From positions 124,001 to 188,000 of the forward strand of contig NZ_QJSP01000005.1 of assembly GCF_003217475.1 (NCBI RefSeq): a stretch of DNA of 64,000 nt, given 5' to 3'. The position numbers and the translations under genes are program-made. Position 1 is the stretch's first letter. Each line of letters begins with the position of its first letter. The notes beneath the pieces are model-generated. The model made no database searches. It had not been told where the DNA came from and worked only from the letters and a program-made list of their open reading frames with translations. Source of the DNA: Williamsia limnetica (lineage in GTDB: Bacteria; Actinomycetota; Actinomycetes; Mycobacteriales; Mycobacteriaceae). Below, piece after piece: positions 56,911 through 63,980 of the stretch.

Positions 56911-57582
56911 TTACGCGGCCGGAGGCGTCAGCACCGTGTCGATGAGGTAGACGGTTGCGTTGGCGGTTTTCACACCGCCACAGACGACAGAAGCGTCCTG
57001 GACCTTGAGGGTGTCGACCGGGCCGGCAACGGTGACGGTGCCACCTTCGACGGTGGCGTGGTCGCCGATGACCTGCTCAGGGGTGAGCTGGCCGGGAACA
57101 ACGTGGTAGGTCAGGATCTTCGTCAGGGTTGCGCTGTCGGTCTTGAGGGACTCGACAGTCGCCGGGGGAAGCTTGGCGAAGGCGTCGTCGGTCGGGGCGA
57201 ACACCGTGAACTCGCCACCGTTGAGGGTGTCGACCAGGTTGACGTCAGGGTTGAGTCCACCCGATACCGCTGCAGTCAGGGTCTTGAGCAGCGGGTTGTT
57301 GCCTGCGGCGGTGGCCACGGGGTCGGCTGCCATGCCGTCAACGGAGCCGGCACCACTCGGGTTTGCTTCGGCGTATGCGGCGCATCCCGGTCCGACCAGG
57401 GTGGCGGGCTCCATCGAAGCGCTTGAGTCCGAGGACATTTCAGAGGAGGTCATCGGGGCCGACGTTGCGGCGCTGGACGATGAGGAATCGGAACTGTCGT
57501 CCGAACAACCTGCCACCAGCCCGATTGCCAGGCCAACGCTCGCCACTGTCACTGCGAGACGCTGAATTCGTTTGAGAGCCAT
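56911..57582 (-). CDS. Fasciclin-domain lipoprotein (MPT70/MPT83-like)
   Basis: 223-residue exported protein. The signal peptide ends in the lipobox VAGC (Cys26), followed by a Ser/Met-rich linker, then one FAS1 domain (about 95-220) with [43 protein letters not shown] and [19 protein letters not shown]. It closely resembles mycobacterial MPT83/MPT70, which are SigK-regulated. A SigK-type promoter lies upstream at 57693-57720 on the same strand. Confidence 0.92.
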
Positions 57583-57692: not shown

Positions 57693-57720
57693 GGTTCGGA
57701 GCTGTGCGCCGGGCGGATGG
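57693..57720 (-). promoter_or_regulatory. SigK-type promoter for the fasciclin gene
   Basis: On the minus strand, -35 CCATCC (57720-57715), 15-base spacer, -10 CCGAACC (57699-57693). It matches the element on the other strand at 57757-57784 in both boxes and spacing. The leader would be about 105 bases. Confidence 0.78.
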
Positions 57721-57756
57721 GTCGGATCGAAAAAGAATTTTGCCGAGTCCGCCGCG

Positions 57757-57784
57757 CCATCCGAAATGCCGATGACTCCGAATC
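57757..57784 (+). promoter_or_regulatory. SigK-type promoter for the molybdopterin oxidoreductase
   Basis: -35 CCATCC (57757-57762), 15-base spacer, -10 CCGAATC (57778-57784). This agrees with the remembered mycobacterial SigK consensus. It would drive the oxidoreductase-sigK-rskA operon and hence autoregulate sigK. Confidence 0.8.
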
Positions 57785-57846
57785 CCCTTCGTTATCAACA
57801 CTTGCCAGTGCGTTACCCAATCGAGATCTTCTGAAGGGTGCAGGAC

Positions 57847-59457
57847 ATGCGAACAGCAGCGATGGCACGCAACGGGCTTGCGGGCCTGATTGCCGTAGGT
57901 GCCGGGTTGGCTGCCGGCGAGGTGACGGCTGCCGCTGTCTCCTCGTATGCCTCCCCGTTCTACGCCGTGGGTTCATTTCTTGTCGACCGTGCTCCGGCTC
58001 CGGTACGCGAATTCGCGATCGACACATTCGGTACGAATGACAAACCGGTTCTCCTGTGGGGCATCGCAGTTGCCGTAGTGGTGCTTTCGATTGTCGCCGG
58101 CATCGCCGAACGTCGAACGGTCCCAATCGGTTCTGCACTCATCGTGGCCTTCGGGGCATTCGGTGTGTTGGCTGCGTTGCATCGACCGACCTCCGACTTC
58201 TGGTATGCGGCACCGTCGTTGATTGCGGCTGTGGTTGGCATTCTCGTGCTGCGTGGCTTGCGCGGCTTTCTCTGGAGCGGGTCGATGCGGGGTGGGCGGA
58301 CGAGGGGTCCGGCCGGCCGGCGCGATCCCGATACGACAGAGAAGCCCCAGTCCGATGCCGATGGCGCCGCGACCACCAAGACGGACCGCGACCTGTCCCG
58401 TCGACAGTTCGGTATAGCTGCGGGAGTCATCGCAGCGGTGTCCGTGGCCGGCGCATTCATCGGCAGGCAGGTGTCGACGATGGGTGACGTGGTGGCAGAC
58501 CGCAAGCGGGTCCGGCTGCCGAGGCCGTCCCGACCGGCAGCACCCATCCCTGCCGGTACGGAGGTCGACATCGAAGGCATCACGCCTTTCATGACGAACA
58601 ACGCCGACTTCTACCGCATCGACACCGCCCTGCAGGTGCCGAAGCTGACGACGGGGGAGTGGCAACTCCGTATCCACGGAATGGTCGACAACGAACTGAC
58701 CCTCGACTGGGACGACCTGATGGACATGCAGGCCGAGGAACGGATCATCACGCTCACCTGTGTGTCCAACGAGGTCGGCGGCAACCTCGCAGGAACCGCC
58801 CGCTGGATCGGCTACCCGATGACGAAGATCCTCGAGCGCGCGGGTGTGCAGGGCGACGCCGACATGCTCTTCTCGACCAGTGTCGACGGCTGGACGTCCG
58901 GGACCCCATTGGCCGACATCACCGACGGCCGAGACTCCATGCTCGTCATAGGCATGAACGGAGAGCCGCTCCCACTCGAGCACGGTTATCCGGTACGTCA
59001 GGTGGTCCCGGGTCTATACGGCTACGTCTCGGCCTGCAAATGGGTTGTCGATTGGGAGATCACCCGATTCGACAAGGCCGAGGCCTACTGGACGAAGCGG
59101 AACTGGGGCGTGAAGGGGCCGATCAAGACGGCGTCGAGGATCGATCGACCGGAGGGGCTTTCCCGGCATCCCGTAGGCGACGTGGTCATCGCCGGAACCG
59201 CATGGGCGCAGCACCGCGGTATCTCCAAAGTCGAGGTACGCGTGGACAAGGGTCCGTGGAACACCGCGACGCTCGCGCCGGAGTACAACAACGACACCTG
59301 GCGGCAGTGGTTCTGGACCTGGCCCGCAACCGCAGGTCAACACACTGTCTATTGTCGCGCCACCGACGAGACGGGGCAGGTGCAACCCGAGGAGAGGGTT
59401 GCCCCGATCCCTGATGGAGCGACCGGCTGGCACAACCGAGTGTTCCGGATTGAATAG
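57847..59457 (+). CDS. Membrane-anchored molybdopterin oxidoreductase (sulfite-oxidase/YedY family)
   Basis: About 536 residues. The first 150 hold four or five membrane helices. An internal twin-arginine motif and hydrophobic segment (SRRQFGIAAGVIAAVSVAGAF) follow, then a sulfite-oxidase-type domain. The Mo-ligand Cys is in ITLTCVSNEVGG, with ARWIGYPM, CKWVVDWEITRFD and the Ig-like dimer domain (GTAWAQHRGISKVEVRVDKGPWNTATL) after it. A reductase of oxidised methionines or other S/N-oxides outside the membrane is plausible. Start at 57847 rather than GTG 57838. Confidence 0.87.
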   Translation: MRTAAMARNGLAGLIAVGAGLAAGEVTAAAVSSYASPFYAVGSFLVDRAPAPVREFAIDTFGTNDKPVLLWGIAVAVVVLSIVAGIAERRTVPIGSALIVAFGAFGVLAALHRPTSDFWYAAPSLIAAVVGILVLRGLRGFLWSGSMRGGRTRGPAGRRDPDTTEKPQSDADGAATTKTDRDLSRRQFGIAAGVIAAVSVAGAFIGRQVSTMGDVVADRKRVRLPRPSRPAAPIPAGTEVDIEGITPFMTNNADFYRIDTALQVPKLTTGEWQLRIHGMVDNELTLDWDDLMDMQAEERIITLTCVSNEVGGNLAGTARWIGYPMTKILERAGVQGDADMLFSTSVDGWTSGTPLADITDGRDSMLVIGMNGEPLPLEHGYPVRQVVPGLYGYVSACKWVVDWEITRFDKAEAYWTKRNWGVKGPIKTASRIDRPEGLSRHPVGDVVIAGTAWAQHRGISKVEVRVDKGPWNTATLAPEYNNDTWRQWFWTWPATAGQHTVYCRATDETGQVQPEERVAPIPDGATGWHNRVFRIE

Positions 59458-59465
59458 GTGATCTG

Positions 59466-60065
59466 ATGACTATGGCTAGTGTTATGGACGTGACCGACCG
59501 CATTCCCGAAGCTCGGGTAGATCTGACTGATCTGTTGATCAGAACGGCCGGCCATGATCGACAGGCCTTTGCTGAGTTGTACGACGCGACGGGTGCCCGG
59601 GTTTTCGGGCTGATCCTGCGGGTCCTACGCGATCGTGGTTACGCCGAAGAGACGCTGCAGGAGGTATATCTGCAGGTCTGGCAGAAGGCGGGTGGGTTCG
59701 ATCCGTCGGCCGGTTCCGCGCTCAGCTGGATGATGACCATCGCCCATCGCCGCGCCGTCGATCGGGTGCGGAGCGAAGAGGCCGCAGGCAAACGCTCCAA
59801 CGACTACTCGGTATCCAACTTCGAGGCTCCCGGTGACACCGTCGCAGACTCGGTGATCGCCGAGGAAGAACGTTCGGACGTGATGTTGTGCCTCGGCAGC
59901 CTCACCGACACACAGCGCCAGAGCATCGAACTGTCTTATTATGGTGGCCTGACGTATCGGCAGGTAGCGGAGCGTTTGGACGCTGCACTACCCACGATCA
60001 AATCCCGTATCCGCGACGGCCTGCGCCGCCTCAAGGCATGCTTGGAGGCGAACCCCCATGGCTGA
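59466..60065 (+). CDS. sigK: ECF sigma factor SigK
   Basis: 199-residue sigma factor. Region 2 (about 25-95) contains AFAELYDATGARVFGLILRVLRDRGYAEETLQEVYLQVWQKAGGFD and SWMMTIAHRRAVDRVRSE; region 4 (about 130-185) has QRQSIELSYYGGLTYRQVAERLDAALPTIKSRIRDGLRRLKACL. Size, sequence and the paired anti-sigma gene (eight-base overlap) match SigK of mycobacteria. It probably reads the CCATCC/CCGAAT promoters upstream. Confidence 0.93.
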   Translation: MTMASVMDVTDRIPEARVDLTDLLIRTAGHDRQAFAELYDATGARVFGLILRVLRDRGYAEETLQEVYLQVWQKAGGFDPSAGSALSWMMTIAHRRAVDRVRSEEAAGKRSNDYSVSNFEAPGDTVADSVIAEEERSDVMLCLGSLTDTQRQSIELSYYGGLTYRQVAERLDAALPTIKSRIRDGLRRLKACLEANPHG

Positions 60066-60861
60066 TCACAGCTGGCTCGACGAGCACATCGAGCTCTATG
60101 CGGTGGGCGCGCTCGACGACACCGAGATCGACCGGATCGAGGTGGAGATCGCCCGCGAGACCGTTGCCGAGCAGCGTCGGTACCGCCACGAGGTCTCGCG
60201 CACCCGCGAGGCGCTCGCGCAGATGACCGTCCAGGTCGCCACGCCGCCGCCACCGCGGATCCGTGAACAGATCATGGCCAACCTCTCGTCAGGACCGCTG
60301 GAACGGCCAGACGGGCGAGGGACGTCGCCGGATTTTGACCTGTCCACGGATGGCGTGGACACCGGTACCCCACCGAACAACGTCATCGACCTCGCTACCC
60401 GTCGCCGTCGCATCAGCCTGGCGGTCGGCTCTGTGGCAGCTGCCCTGATGCTCGTCATCGGCGGCGTGTTGGTCGGCAGGGTGACCGCACCGGACACGGG
60501 CGCGCCGGTGGCGAACCAGCTCGAGCAGGACACCAGCAAGGTGCTCAGCGCACCCGACATGCAACTCCGGCAGGACGCCGTGGGAGGCGGAAACGTCACC
60601 GTGGCGGCATCCCGCGAGGCGAACACGGCGGTGGTCTTCGCCGACGGCCTGCCGCCGACCCCGACCGGTCAGACGTATCAGATGTGGCTCCTCGGCGACG
60701 CGCACGATCCGACGTCGGTGGGCCTCATGCAGGGCGACCCCGGGCGTCAGGTGATCGCGCTCGACGACCTGACGGGGTCGAACCGGCTGGGCATCACGAT
60801 CGAGCCCGAGGGCGGATCTCCGCAGCCGACCGGCGAAGTGATCACGGCAGTCCAGTTCTGA
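60058..60861 (+). CDS. rskA: Anti-sigma-K factor RskA
   Basis: 267-residue single-pass membrane protein. The cytosolic anti-sigma domain (WLDEHIELYAVGALDDTEIDRIE) lies within residues 1-60; a membrane helix covers about 119-140; the outer domain from about 150 has TYQMWLLGDAHDPTSVGLMQGD and EPEGGSPQPTGEVITAVQF, typical of RskA. It holds SigK inactive until regulated proteolysis. Confidence 0.93.
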   Translation: MADHSWLDEHIELYAVGALDDTEIDRIEVEIARETVAEQRRYRHEVSRTREALAQMTVQVATPPPPRIREQIMANLSSGPLERPDGRGTSPDFDLSTDGVDTGTPPNNVIDLATRRRRISLAVGSVAAALMLVIGGVLVGRVTAPDTGAPVANQLEQDTSKVLSAPDMQLRQDAVGGGNVTVAASREANTAVVFADGLPPTPTGQTYQMWLLGDAHDPTSVGLMQGDPGRQVIALDDLTGSNRLGITIEPEGGSPQPTGEVITAVQF

Positions 60862-61020: not shown

Positions 61021-61092
61021 CAGGCTATTTAGGGGTGGGCACCGGAGCAGCTCTATCGGTTGTCCACCCATACCCATGACGAGGGAGCTTGT

Positions 61093-62208
61093 ATGAGTGT
61101 GGGTGTCGTGCGTGAAACGACAGCTGGGGAGAACCGGGTGGCGTTGGTGCCGAAGGTGGTGGCAACGCTGGTGGGCAAGGGCGTGCCGGTGATCGTGGAG
61201 TCCGGTGCGGGTGAGGCCGCGTTGATTCCGGATCAGTTGTATGCCGATGCCGGTGCGTCGGTCGGTGACGCGTGGTCGGCTGATGTGGTGGTGAAGGTCG
61301 ATGCACCCACCGATGCCGAGATCGGCAAGTTGTCGTCGGGTTCGTCGTTGATCGGTTTCCTGGCGCCGCGCAATCAGGAGAATCAGATCGGCGCATTGAA
61401 GGCCGCCGGTGTGCAGGCCTTTGCGGTGGAGGCGATCCCGCGTATTTCTCGTGCGCAGTCGATGGATGCGTTGTCGTCCCAGGGCAACGTCTCGGGCTAC
61501 AAGGCCGTGATCTTGGCAGCAGAGAAGTCCACGCGCTTTTTCCCGATGCTGACCACCGCCGCCGGTACGGTGAAGCCGGCGACGGTGCTGGTGCTCGGTG
61601 TGGGGGTGGCGGGTTTGCAGGCGTTGGCCACAGCCAAGCGTCTCGGTGCCCGCACCACGGGGTATGACGTGCGCCCGGAGGTGGCCGAGCAGGTCAAGTC
61701 CGTGGGCGGGCAGTGGCTCGATCTGGGTATCGACGCTGCCGGTGAAGGCGGTTATGCCCGTGAGTTGACCGACGATGAGCGCGCGAAGCAGCAGCAGGCC
61801 CTCGAGGACGCGATCAAGAGTTTCGATGTGGTCATCACGACCGCACTGGTGCCGGGTCGTCCGGCACCGCGGCTGGTGACCGCGGCTGCAGTCGAAGGTA
61901 TGAAGCCCGGCAGTGTGGTGGTCGATCTGGCCGGTGAGACCGGCGGCAACTGCGAGCTGACCGAGCCCGGTGAGAATGTGATCAAGCATGATGTGCTGAT
62001 CTGCAGCCCGCTGAATCTGCCCGCGGGGATGCCTGAGCATGCCAGCGAGTTGTATGCAAAGAACATTCTGGCGTTGATCGAACTCGCGCTTGATGATGAC
62101 GGTAATTTCGCGCCGGACTTTTCTGACGAGGTGTTGGCCGCGGCGTGTGTGACCCGCGAGGCCCCGACTTCTGATGTTTCTGGCACTGATGTGAAGGCTG
62201 GTGCCTGA
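61093..62208 (+). CDS. pntAA: NAD(P) transhydrogenase alpha subunit, NAD(H)-binding part
   Basis: 371-residue cytosolic subunit (domain I). It starts with the alanine-dehydrogenase-like RETTAGENRVALVPKVV and contains the Rossmann loop LVLGVGVAGLQALATAKRLGA and the mobile loop YARELTDDERAKQQQ. It binds NAD(H) for proton-coupled hydride transfer to NADP+. First gene of the three-subunit form found in many actinobacteria. GAGGGA precedes the ATG. Confidence 0.95.
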   Translation: MSVGVVRETTAGENRVALVPKVVATLVGKGVPVIVESGAGEAALIPDQLYADAGASVGDAWSADVVVKVDAPTDAEIGKLSSGSSLIGFLAPRNQENQIGALKAAGVQAFAVEAIPRISRAQSMDALSSQGNVSGYKAVILAAEKSTRFFPMLTTAAGTVKPATVLVLGVGVAGLQALATAKRLGARTTGYDVRPEVAEQVKSVGGQWLDLGIDAAGEGGYARELTDDERAKQQQALEDAIKSFDVVITTALVPGRPAPRLVTAAAVEGMKPGSVVVDLAGETGGNCELTEPGENVIKHDVLICSPLNLPAGMPEHASELYAKNILALIELALDDDGNFAPDFSDEVLAAACVTREAPTSDVSGTDVKAGA

Positions 62209-62211
62209 AAG

Positions 62212-62541
62212 ATGTATACGGGTTTACTCGCGAATATCGCGATTTTGGTGCTGGCGGGTTTTGTCGGTTTTGCGGTGATCTCCAAGGTCCCCAATACGTT
62301 GCACACGCCGTTGATGTCGGGCACGAACGCCATTCACGGCATCGTGGTGCTCGGTGCGTTGATCGTGCTGGGGCGCTTGCCTGATGATGCTCCGTGGGGT
62401 GTGCGGATCATCGCGTTCGTCGCGTTGATCTTCGGGACCCTGAACGTGGTCGGTGGGTTCTTGGTCACCGACCGGATGCTGGGCATGTTCAAGAGCAAGA
62501 AGGCCCCCGTGGCGGCGCCGGAGCAGGGAGCTGACAAGTGA
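62212..62541 (+). CDS. pntAB: NAD(P) transhydrogenase alpha subunit, membrane part
   Basis: 109-residue membrane subunit with three helices (IAILVLAGFVGFAVISKVPNTLHTPLMSGTNAIHGIVVLGAL). With pntB it forms the proton channel. Three bases after pntAA; overlaps pntB by GTGA. Confidence 0.94.
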   Translation: MYTGLLANIAILVLAGFVGFAVISKVPNTLHTPLMSGTNAIHGIVVLGALIVLGRLPDDAPWGVRIIAFVALIFGTLNVVGGFLVTDRMLGMFKSKKAPVAAPEQGADK

Positions 62542-63980
62542 ACAACTTGGTCAATATTCTTTACATCATTGCGTTTTCGATGTTCATCCTCGGTTTGTCG
62601 GGGTTGACCGGACCGAAGACAGCGGTGCGCGGCAACTGGATCGCTGCTGCCGGTATGGGTATCGCCGTGATCGCGACGTTGATCGAGATCCGCGATACCT
62701 ATGCCATCAACTGGATTCTGATCGTGGCCGGGTTGGCGATCGGTGTGATCTTGGGTGTGCCGCCGGCCAAGAGGACGAAGATGACGGCGATGCCGCAGTT
62801 GGTGGCACTGTTCAACGGTGTCGGCGGCGGTACGGTGGCGTTGATCGCCTGGACCGAGTTCATCGAGACCGCAGGTTTCTCGGAGTTCAAGCACGGCGAG
62901 GAACCGACCATCCACATCGTGATCGGGTCGCTGTTCGCGGCGATCATCGGTTCGGTGTCGTTCTGGGGCTCGCTGATCGCGTTCCTGAAGCTGCAGGAGT
63001 TGCTGAACAAGAACGTGGAGAAGGCGTTCGTCAAGAACGCGAAGATCTTCCAGGTCGCGAACATCGTGTTGCTGCTCGTCGCGCTCGCGGCGTGTGTGTT
63101 CATCGGCATCAACGCCACCCCGGGTGAGGGTTCGTCGCAGTGGTGGATCGTGCTGGTGCTCATCGCCGCGGGGATCATGGGCTTGTTCGTGGTGTTGCCG
63201 ATCGGTGGCGCCGACATGCCGGTGGTCATCTCGCTGCTCAACGCGTTGACCGGTTTGTCGGCCGCGGCAGCTGGTCTGGCGCTGAACAACACCGCGATGA
63301 TCGTGGCCGGCATGATCGTCGGCGCCTCGGGCAGCATTTTGACGAACCTGATGGCGACGGCGATGAACCGGTCCATCCCGGCGATCGTGTTCGGGTCGTT
63401 CGGCGGTGGAGGCGGCGCTGCTGCTGCGGGTCCGGCCGGCGAGCAGGGGACCGTCAAGGCCACCAGCGCTGCCGATGCCGCGATCCAGATGGCGTACGCC
63501 AGCCAGGTCATCGTCGTTCCGGGTTACGGGCTCGCGGTGGCCCAGGCTCAGCACGCGGTGAAGGACATGGCGAGCATTCTGGAGGAGAAGGGCGTCGAGG
63601 TGAAGTACGCCATCCATCCGGTCGCCGGTCGTATGCCCGGGCACATGAATGTGCTGCTCGCCGAGGCTGATGTCGAGTATGACGCGATGAAGGAAATGGA
63701 CGACATCAACGGTGAGTTCTCGCGTACCGATGTCACCCTGGTCATCGGCGCCAACGATGTCACCAACCCCGCCGCCCGCAACGACCCGTCCAGCCCGATC
63801 CACGGGATGCCGATCTTGAACGTCGACCAGTCCCGCTCGGTCATCGTCCTCAAACGCGGTATGGCTTCGGGATACGCCGGTATCGACAACCCACTGTTCA
63901 CCGCACCGGGCACTTCAATGCTCTTCGGCGACGCCAAGAAGTCCGTCGGCCTCGTCATCGAGGAGCTCAAGGCTTTGTAG
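62538..63980 (+). CDS. pntB: NAD(P) transhydrogenase beta subunit
   Basis: 480-residue subunit: nine or so helices (about 1-290) with the proton-path region NGVGGGTVALIAWTEFI, and a C-terminal NADP(H)-binding domain III with VVPGYGLAVAQAQHAV and IGANDVTNPAARNDPSSPIHGMPILNVDQSRSVIVLKRGMASGYAGIDNPLF. GTG start overlaps pntAB. The complex uses the proton gradient to make NADPH from NADH. Confidence 0.96.
   Translation: MNNLVNILYIIAFSMFILGLSGLTGPKTAVRGNWIAAAGMGIAVIATLIEIRDTYAINWILIVAGLAIGVILGVPPAKRTKMTAMPQLVALFNGVGGGTVALIAWTEFIETAGFSEFKHGEEPTIHIVIGSLFAAIIGSVSFWGSLIAFLKLQELLNKNVEKAFVKNAKIFQVANIVLLLVALAACVFIGINATPGEGSSQWWIVLVLIAAGIMGLFVVLPIGGADMPVVISLLNALTGLSAAAAGLALNNTAMIVAGMIVGASGSILTNLMATAMNRSIPAIVFGSFGGGGGAAAAGPAGEQGTVKATSAADAAIQMAYASQVIVVPGYGLAVAQAQHAVKDMASILEEKGVEVKYAIHPVAGRMPGHMNVLLAEADVEYDAMKEMDDINGEFSRTDVTLVIGANDVTNPAARNDPSSPIHGMPILNVDQSRSVIVLKRGMASGYAGIDNPLFTAPGTSMLFGDAKKSVGLVIEELKAL

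Follow-up and report, generated by a model that had tools for sequence, protein, structure and literature searches.

Predicted SigK-type promoters upstream of fasciclin, molybdoenzyme and carotenoid genes in Williamsia suggest a photo-oxidative role for SigK-RskA

A cassette of mpt83, sigK and rskA with a site for the extracytoplasmic function (ECF) sigma factor SigK has already been published (PMC7509140, citing Veyrier 2008). In the M. tuberculosis complex, the SigK regulon spans two loci, that of mpb83/mpb70 and that of sigK, which includes ufaA1, and for the M. bovis sigK locus all functions except those of ufaA1, sigK and rskA are called unknown (review PMC10540498). The two best-known SigK products are antigens without settled function, and the signal of SigK is stated as unknown (PMC7509140). 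Here we analysed a stretch of 64,000 nucleotides (nt) from Williamsia limnetica (contig NZ_QJSP01000005.1, positions 124,001 to 188,000; hereafter the window), in which the fasciclin lipoprotein gene fas1 and an operon of a molybdoenzyme gene (moco), sigK and rskA diverge from a gap with two predicted SigK-type promoters. Sites of the same type precede carotenoid pigment genes, which suggests that SigK answers light-driven oxidative damage.

The locus shares with the published cassette a fas1 lipoprotein gene that carries a SigK site and lies beside sigK-rskA, but here a molybdoenzyme gene heads the sigK operon with a SigK-type site of its own, and carotenoid genes carry sites too. The term 'molybd' has 0 occurrences in the main text of PMC7509140. 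Sigma and anti-sigma families and FAS1 targets are also those of the M. tuberculosis complex regulon, whereas the available parts of PMC10540498 mention neither moco nor a carotenoid gene, and seven of nine Williamsia genomes are without DUF1365. Light-induced carotenogenesis in M. kansasii is a further parallel: light raises mpk83 and mpk70, the homologues of the SigK targets mpt83 and mpt70, along with carotenoid (crt) and photolyase genes, but a SigK link to crt is not drawn in the text available (PMC9861118). A literature search over titles and abstract openings, with most subscription papers (Veyrier 2008 included) outside its reach, found none that puts carotenoid genes under SigK. The mpt83-sigK-rskA cassette is known already, while the carotenoid-gene link and the photo-oxidative reading of SigK did not turn up in that search.

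The elements of the locus, in window coordinates, are:

56911..57582, minus strand: fas1, fasciclin-domain lipoprotein of the MPT70/MPT83 type (PF02469, 1.1e-27; lipobox LVAGC read off the sequence)
57693..57720, minus strand: predicted SigK-type promoter on the fas1 side; CCATCC (57720-57715), 15-base spacer GCCCGGCGCACAGCT, CCGAACC (57699-57693)
57757..57784, plus strand: predicted SigK-type promoter on the moco-sigK-rskA side; CCATCC (57757-57762), 15-base spacer GAAATGCCGATGACT, CCGAATC (57778-57784)
57838..59457, plus strand: moco, membrane-anchored molybdoenzyme of the sulfite-oxidase family (PF00174, 1.2e-41; SorA, PDB 2ca4, 2.2e-27)
59466..60065, plus strand: sigK, ECF sigma factor (NCBIfam NF007228, 278 bits against a cut-off of 226; PDB 4nqw, 1.1e-64)
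60058..60861, plus strand: rskA, anti-SigK factor (RskA_C, PF10099, 88 bits against a cut-off of 29; hydrophobic segment 121-139)

The gene order is thus fas1 on the minus strand, the divergent gap, and moco-sigK-rskA on the plus strand (57838-60861). Each site has CCATCC as its -35 box and either CCGAACC (fas1 site) or CCGAATC (moco site) as its -10 box; the end of the CCGAA box lies 113 nt from the ATG of fas1 and 56 nt from the GTG of moco. CCATCC and CCGAAT at fixed spacing constitute what we take to be the SigK promoter consensus. Both gap sites agree with it in their boxes, and relatives show spacers of 15 and 16 bases (N15, N16) alike. When both strands of the 64 kb were searched for CCATCC-N14-16-CCGAAYC, these two were the only matches, with 0.05 expected, and two matches occurred in 0 of 100 shuffles of the window. 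The preliminary description had placed CCATCC, exactly 15 bases and CCGAA[TC]C once on each strand of the gap, each pointing at one of the divergent genes, and its coordinates, spacer and orientations proved exact, as did its plus-strand operon from moco through sigK (8-nt gap) to rskA (8-nt overlap). We infer that the gap holds two divergent ECF promoters of the SigK type.

The complete 6.35-Mb genome contains 41 matches to CCATCC-N14-17-CCGAA, all of which were classified. Three of them lie between genes and no more than 120 nt from a gene start: the sites of moco, of fas1 and of the phytoene synthase gene crtB, which crtI follows. The crtE gene, which encodes a geranylgeranyl diphosphate (GGPP) synthase and faces crtI-crtB, has a fourth match upstream, with 54 nt between the end of the match and the ATG. 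Automatic labelling had made this match coding on account of a TTG further upstream in the same frame, but in each of the nine Williamsia genomes the conserved protein begins at the downstream ATG. A larger regulon in this genome was rejected, the other 37 matches being either coding (35, with 11 coding matches also preceding a predicted ORF start) or intergenic without a gene downstream (two, L001 and L023). With the strict pattern CCATCC-N15-CCGAAT, the nine Williamsia genomes gave 24 matches: nine at moco, five at crtB, eight inside open reading frames (ORFs; one ORF of 60 aa) and two intergenic without a gene. A narrower pattern applied to four of the nine yielded 33 matches, 14 of them at moco (4/4), crtE (4/4), fas1 (3/4) and crtB (3/4).

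Upstream of crtE, the site (N15 or N16) is exact in nine of nine Williamsia genomes, 53-56 nt before the start of proteins that are 74-85% identical over all 371 residues; upstream of crtB it is exact in five of nine. We then ran the crtE of the crt locus as a query on 23 genomes (Gordonia and one Aldersonia), 14 of which have a crt-type crtE. All 14 carry the motif upstream, 13 of them exactly and one with a single mismatch, and its first base lies 77-170 nt ahead of the matched start. Taken together, 22 of 23 crt-locus crtE genes (Williamsia, Gordonia, Aldersonia) have an exact site versus none of the 16 housekeeping GGPP-synthase loci that could be scanned among 22 gene matches (Fisher p 4.5e-10). 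Beyond the first base, the spacers of the ten N15 sites in the Gordonia/Aldersonia set are 50% alike, so the motif persists as the sequence around it diverges (that its boxes are alike is a consequence of the search). For crtB outside Williamsia, 20 regions were examined from 24 matches. Before idi of the Gordonia/Aldersonia operon idi-crtB-crtI, 15 of the 18 upstream windows (510 nt each) contain a site with no more than one mismatch; one is exact and 14 deviate at the first base of CCGAA, the base at which several Gordonia fas1 promoters drift as well. In 46 non-target control loci, 16 of 1388 windows of 250 nt reached at most one mismatch, and exact N15/16 matches numbered 0 in 356,270 strand-bases.

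The sites of the divergent pair are conserved too. Counting the genome of the window, nine Williamsia genomes have an exact moco site in 9/9 and an exact fas1 site in 8/9 (8/8 and 7/8 without it), whereas the moco paralogues of the genus (~50% identical) have an exact site in 0/9. A wider survey covered the best 80 of 116 loci. Where sigK lies in the same locus (n=23), the moco site is exact in 11, has one mismatch in three and is absent from nine, eight of these being Dietzia; fas1 has its site in all 23, 18 of them exact and five with one mismatch. With sigK distant and fas1 beside moco (n=15), a site with at most one mismatch precedes moco in 10 and fas1 in 13. With neither sigK nor fas1 near, 16 of 27 non-Gordonia loci (mostly Rhodococcus) keep the moco site at this level, all four Mycobacterium/Mycobacteroides loci being among the misses, against 0/14 Gordonia moco copies away from fas1 and sigK; for 6 of these 14, the genome also gives a locus with fas1 beside moco. 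Two Gordonia loci with fas1 present (L236, L292) miss both sites. In these counts L293, which has no upstream DNA, was dropped from the moco and fas1 columns, L250 went into the group without fas1 since its fas1 is not upstream, and L273 was scored as a miss although an exact N16 site lies 37 nt inside its extrapolated start; L242 starts at a contig end, so that a fas1 beyond its edge is possible. Two records are probably misassigned: L225, which clusters with Williamsia under the title Kitasatospora arboriphila NRRL B-24581, is probably mislabelled, and L234, an Acidobacteriaceae metagenome contig with a Williamsia-like fas1-moco-sigK module, is probably misbinned.

Since the site is kept upstream of moco without sigK nearby, it can follow the gene away from sigK. 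The moco and fas1 sites are often kept where the pair lies apart from sigK, and on these sequence comparisons the molybdoenzyme is well supported as a SigK co-target. The preliminary description had named it a likely co-target and proposed scanning relatives for the motif upstream of fas1 and molybdoenzyme genes; the scan bears out the conserved pair and supports the molybdoenzyme as a likely co-target. Against this background, we regard it as very improbable that the sites are artefacts of chance or composition. The motif is indeed C-rich, and 36 of the 41 genome matches were labelled coding (35 with crtE set right), but the shuffles, the invariant moco site of Williamsia and the clean controls (housekeeping GGPP synthases, Gordonia moco copies, non-target loci) led us to reject a chance motif.

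We consider it rather probable that SigK-RskA is an actinobacterial photo-oxidative stress system in which the same SigK drives fas1, moco-sigK-rskA, crtE and crtB-crtI. Photo-oxidation of the membrane would cause the loss of RskA and free SigK (this signal step is a guess), and freed SigK would transcribe fas1 and, by autoregulation, moco-sigK-rskA, as well as the dispersed carotenoid genes crtE and crtB-crtI. Related genera would add to this regulon idi-crtB-crtI and a fatty-acid operon (amine oxidase, DUF1365, CMAS, DUF1295) ending in sigK-rskA. Carotenoids would quench singlet oxygen and furan-type fatty acids would act as sacrificial or signalling membrane lipids, while the exported molybdenum enzyme may repair oxidised groups (substrate guessed) and the exported FAS1 protein would repair or bind damaged or protective molecules (ligand guessed). 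Carotenoid, lipid, molybdenum-enzyme and FAS1 genes together form the set expected of a cell that defends itself against singlet oxygen produced by light. We hypothesize that the signal itself is photo-oxidative stress. Besides the light response of mpk83 and mpk70 in M. kansasii (PMC9861118), two published cases agree with this: RskA of Nesterenkonia is lowered by UV (PMC8965627), and the singlet-oxygen-induced RpoE-ChrR of R. capsulatus is closer to SigK-RskA than it is to RpoE-ChrR of R. sphaeroides (PMC7074977). If this is true, the signal could be tested with light and dye in pigmented relatives, with colour as the readout, and a role for the uncharacterised genes of the sigK operon, along with a reason for the molybdenum enzyme, would be suggested.

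Alternatively, the locus could be an ordinary SigK cassette (fas1, moco and sigK itself), the carotenoid sites being read by another ECF factor of similar promoter preference, such as a SigK-like paralogue. Paralogues do exist: SigK-like factors at 45% and 41% identity are encoded in the genome of the window, and each of seven Gordonia genomes has one to three at 52-64%. We judge this alternative unlikely. The moco, fas1 and crt sites have a common motif and the 15/16 spacing, and none of six other SigK-like genes (five from Gordonia, one from the genome of the window; 9-16 kb fetched for each) has an exact site, compared with seven of seven lipid-linked sigK operons. A single SigK, rather than a related ECF factor, would appear to read all these sites.

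These lipid-linked operons show a second arrangement of sigK. An exact SigK-type site stands at the head of amine oxidase-DUF1365-CMAS-DUF1295-sigK-rskA in Tomitella biformata, four Gordonia genomes and one g30 genome (g-numbers are our labels), and at the head of DUF1365-sigK-rskA in a g29 genome; among 20 loci examined, all seven with such an operon have the exact site. By Pfam, the Tomitella operon begins with an alpha/beta hydrolase gene and has CMAS doubled. Its locus also carries the moco/fas1 pair with its own sites (fas1 exact, moco with one mismatch), so both cassette forms meet there. The gene order of the lipid operon in Gordonia, g30 and Tomitella presumably resembles that of the sigK locus in the M. 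tuberculosis complex. The preliminary description had taken the compact module for the ancestral state, which was not borne out: sigK ends a lipid-gene operon in Gordonia and g30, and Tomitella has both forms. Proteins of PF01593, PF07103 and PF02353 are present in Tomitella and, by tblastn, in the four Gordonia and the one g30 genome (a candidate trio of the UfaD/UfaO/UfaM type). DUF1365 is the domain of UfaO, which makes furan fatty acids together with UfaM and the phytoene-desaturase-like UfaD (PMC7380195), and in Rhodobacter the singlet-oxygen sigma factor has the furan-fatty-acid genes among its core targets and needs them for its response to singlet oxygen (PMC6852236).

The likeness to RpoE-ChrR (ECF11) of R. 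sphaeroides lies in a sigma/anti-sigma pair that drives furan-fatty-acid genes (PMC6852236, PMC7380195), and among solved structures RpoE ranks second as a match to the SigK of the window (1.9e-21). The systems differ in that the RskA of the window is a cysteine-free membrane protein, which leaves it without a zinc site like that of ChrR and places it outside the ECF11 anti-sigma type; the other targets differ as well. A bolder version of the photo-oxidative reading, which we advance tentatively and hold to be somewhat less probable than not, makes SigK-RskA the actinobacterial counterpart of RpoE-ChrR. Its regulon would couple crtE, idi-crtB-crtI, furan-type fatty acids, the molybdenum enzyme and FAS1; the FAS1 protein may carry a carotenoid or oxidised lipid, as AstaP carries astaxanthin, and MPT70/MPT83 would be remnants of a light response. 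Among solved structures, MPT70 is closest to the fas1 product (PDB 1nyo, 6.8e-63), and the solved relatives of that product include the carotenoid-binding AstaP (8c18, 4.1e-7), an algal photo-oxidative stress protein; the cyanobacterial FAS1 protein SynAstaP showed no carotenoid binding (PMC10147662).

Several observations weigh against a photo-oxidative SigK regulon. All promoters are predictions from sequence, and of the 36 matches labelled coding in the genome of the window, 11 lie within 250 nt ahead of a predicted ORF start and may be further candidates. The crtB of four of nine Williamsia genomes has no site within 400 nt even at two mismatches, and crtB of six g30 loci and three g3 loci has none within 300 nt; a SigK-like factor is present in g30 genomes, and the genomes that gave a SigK match include none of g3. 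Of eight Dietzia genomes, just two carry an exact crtE site; both copies have the same sequence and stop 9 nt short of the probable start. Aldersonia has the crtE site but no exact site in 16 kb around its sigK (L209). DUF1365 occurs in just two of nine Williamsia genomes, that of the window not being one of them, and ~215 nt upstream of the Williamsia DUF1365 operon gave no match at two or fewer mismatches. A SigK tree of 43 sequences left that of the window unplaced and did not tell apart the one to three SigK-like factors of Gordonia. Published data add three points: in M. kansasii crt rises far more than mpk83 and mpk70, dipZ is unresponsive and crt is not tied to SigK in the available text (PMC9861118); in M. 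smegmatis it is SigF, and in C. glutamicum a MarR-type regulator, on which carotenoids depend; and in vitro, oxidation stabilises the SigK-RskA complex whereas reduction frees SigK (cited in PMC7509140). As it is reduction that frees SigK, a simple thiol-oxidation switch is unlikely, and a photo-oxidative signal would have to act via proteolysis of RskA or via lipid products.

The encoded proteins bear on one further alternative. At this locus an RskA-family anti-sigma gene adjoins sigK, and FAS1 lipoprotein, sigK-rskA and SigK site are all present, with moco between fas1 and sigK. On the rskA product, RskA_N (PF22618) falls just below threshold (26.5 versus 27 bits), and the protein has zero cysteines. 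Cys142 and Cys192 of SigK align with both redox cysteines of M. tuberculosis SigK (4nqw). By hydropathy, the moco product has four hydrophobic segments, an RRQF motif at residue 188, a fifth segment and then the molybdopterin domain; Cys308 is invariant in an alignment of nine orthologues. We infer a membrane part followed by export of the twin-arginine translocation (Tat) type. As a separate observation, the membrane segments and the twin-arginine (RR) signal anchor of moco (57838-59457) suggest mixed Sec and Tat export. Like MsrP and SorA, the moco product belongs to the sulfite-oxidase family and would be exported, judging from its RR motif, but it is fused to a four-segment membrane part and stays under the curated cut-offs. 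Its assignment to MsrP (NF003767, 63 bits versus a cut-off of 207) was rejected, as was that to the sulfite dehydrogenases SorA, SorT and SoxC (98/600, 69/570 and 103/420 bits versus curated cut-offs).

A SigK regulon for extracytoplasmic redox or thiol repair, in which the molybdenum enzyme reduces oxidised methionine or handles sulfite and the fas1 product is its client, would fit the sulfite-oxidase family with its invariant cysteine and the redox-sensitive cysteines kept in SigK. We nevertheless consider it improbable, with moco this far under the thresholds of MsrP, SorA, SorT and SoxC, and with the same sites at carotenoid and lipid genes left unexplained. The preliminary description had suggested redox repair or metabolism as the ancestral SigK response, which looks too narrow: the shared motif at carotenoid genes, taken with the lipid operon, points toward photo-oxidative stress.

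Further genes were noted beside these elements. Genes for NAD(P) transhydrogenase (window 61060-63980) follow rskA, as they also do in genera g16 and g18. In one Gordonia, an outward SigK-type site (L210:12967-12994, plus strand) precedes a lipocalin-like gene, and another such gene follows fas1 in genus g27 (L218:9646-10236); both were identified by eye. In the latter locus, the end of a DNA photolyase gene (L218:13428-14948) overlaps a SigK-type site aimed at an epimerase gene, ~4 kb from fas1 and 5 kb from sigK.
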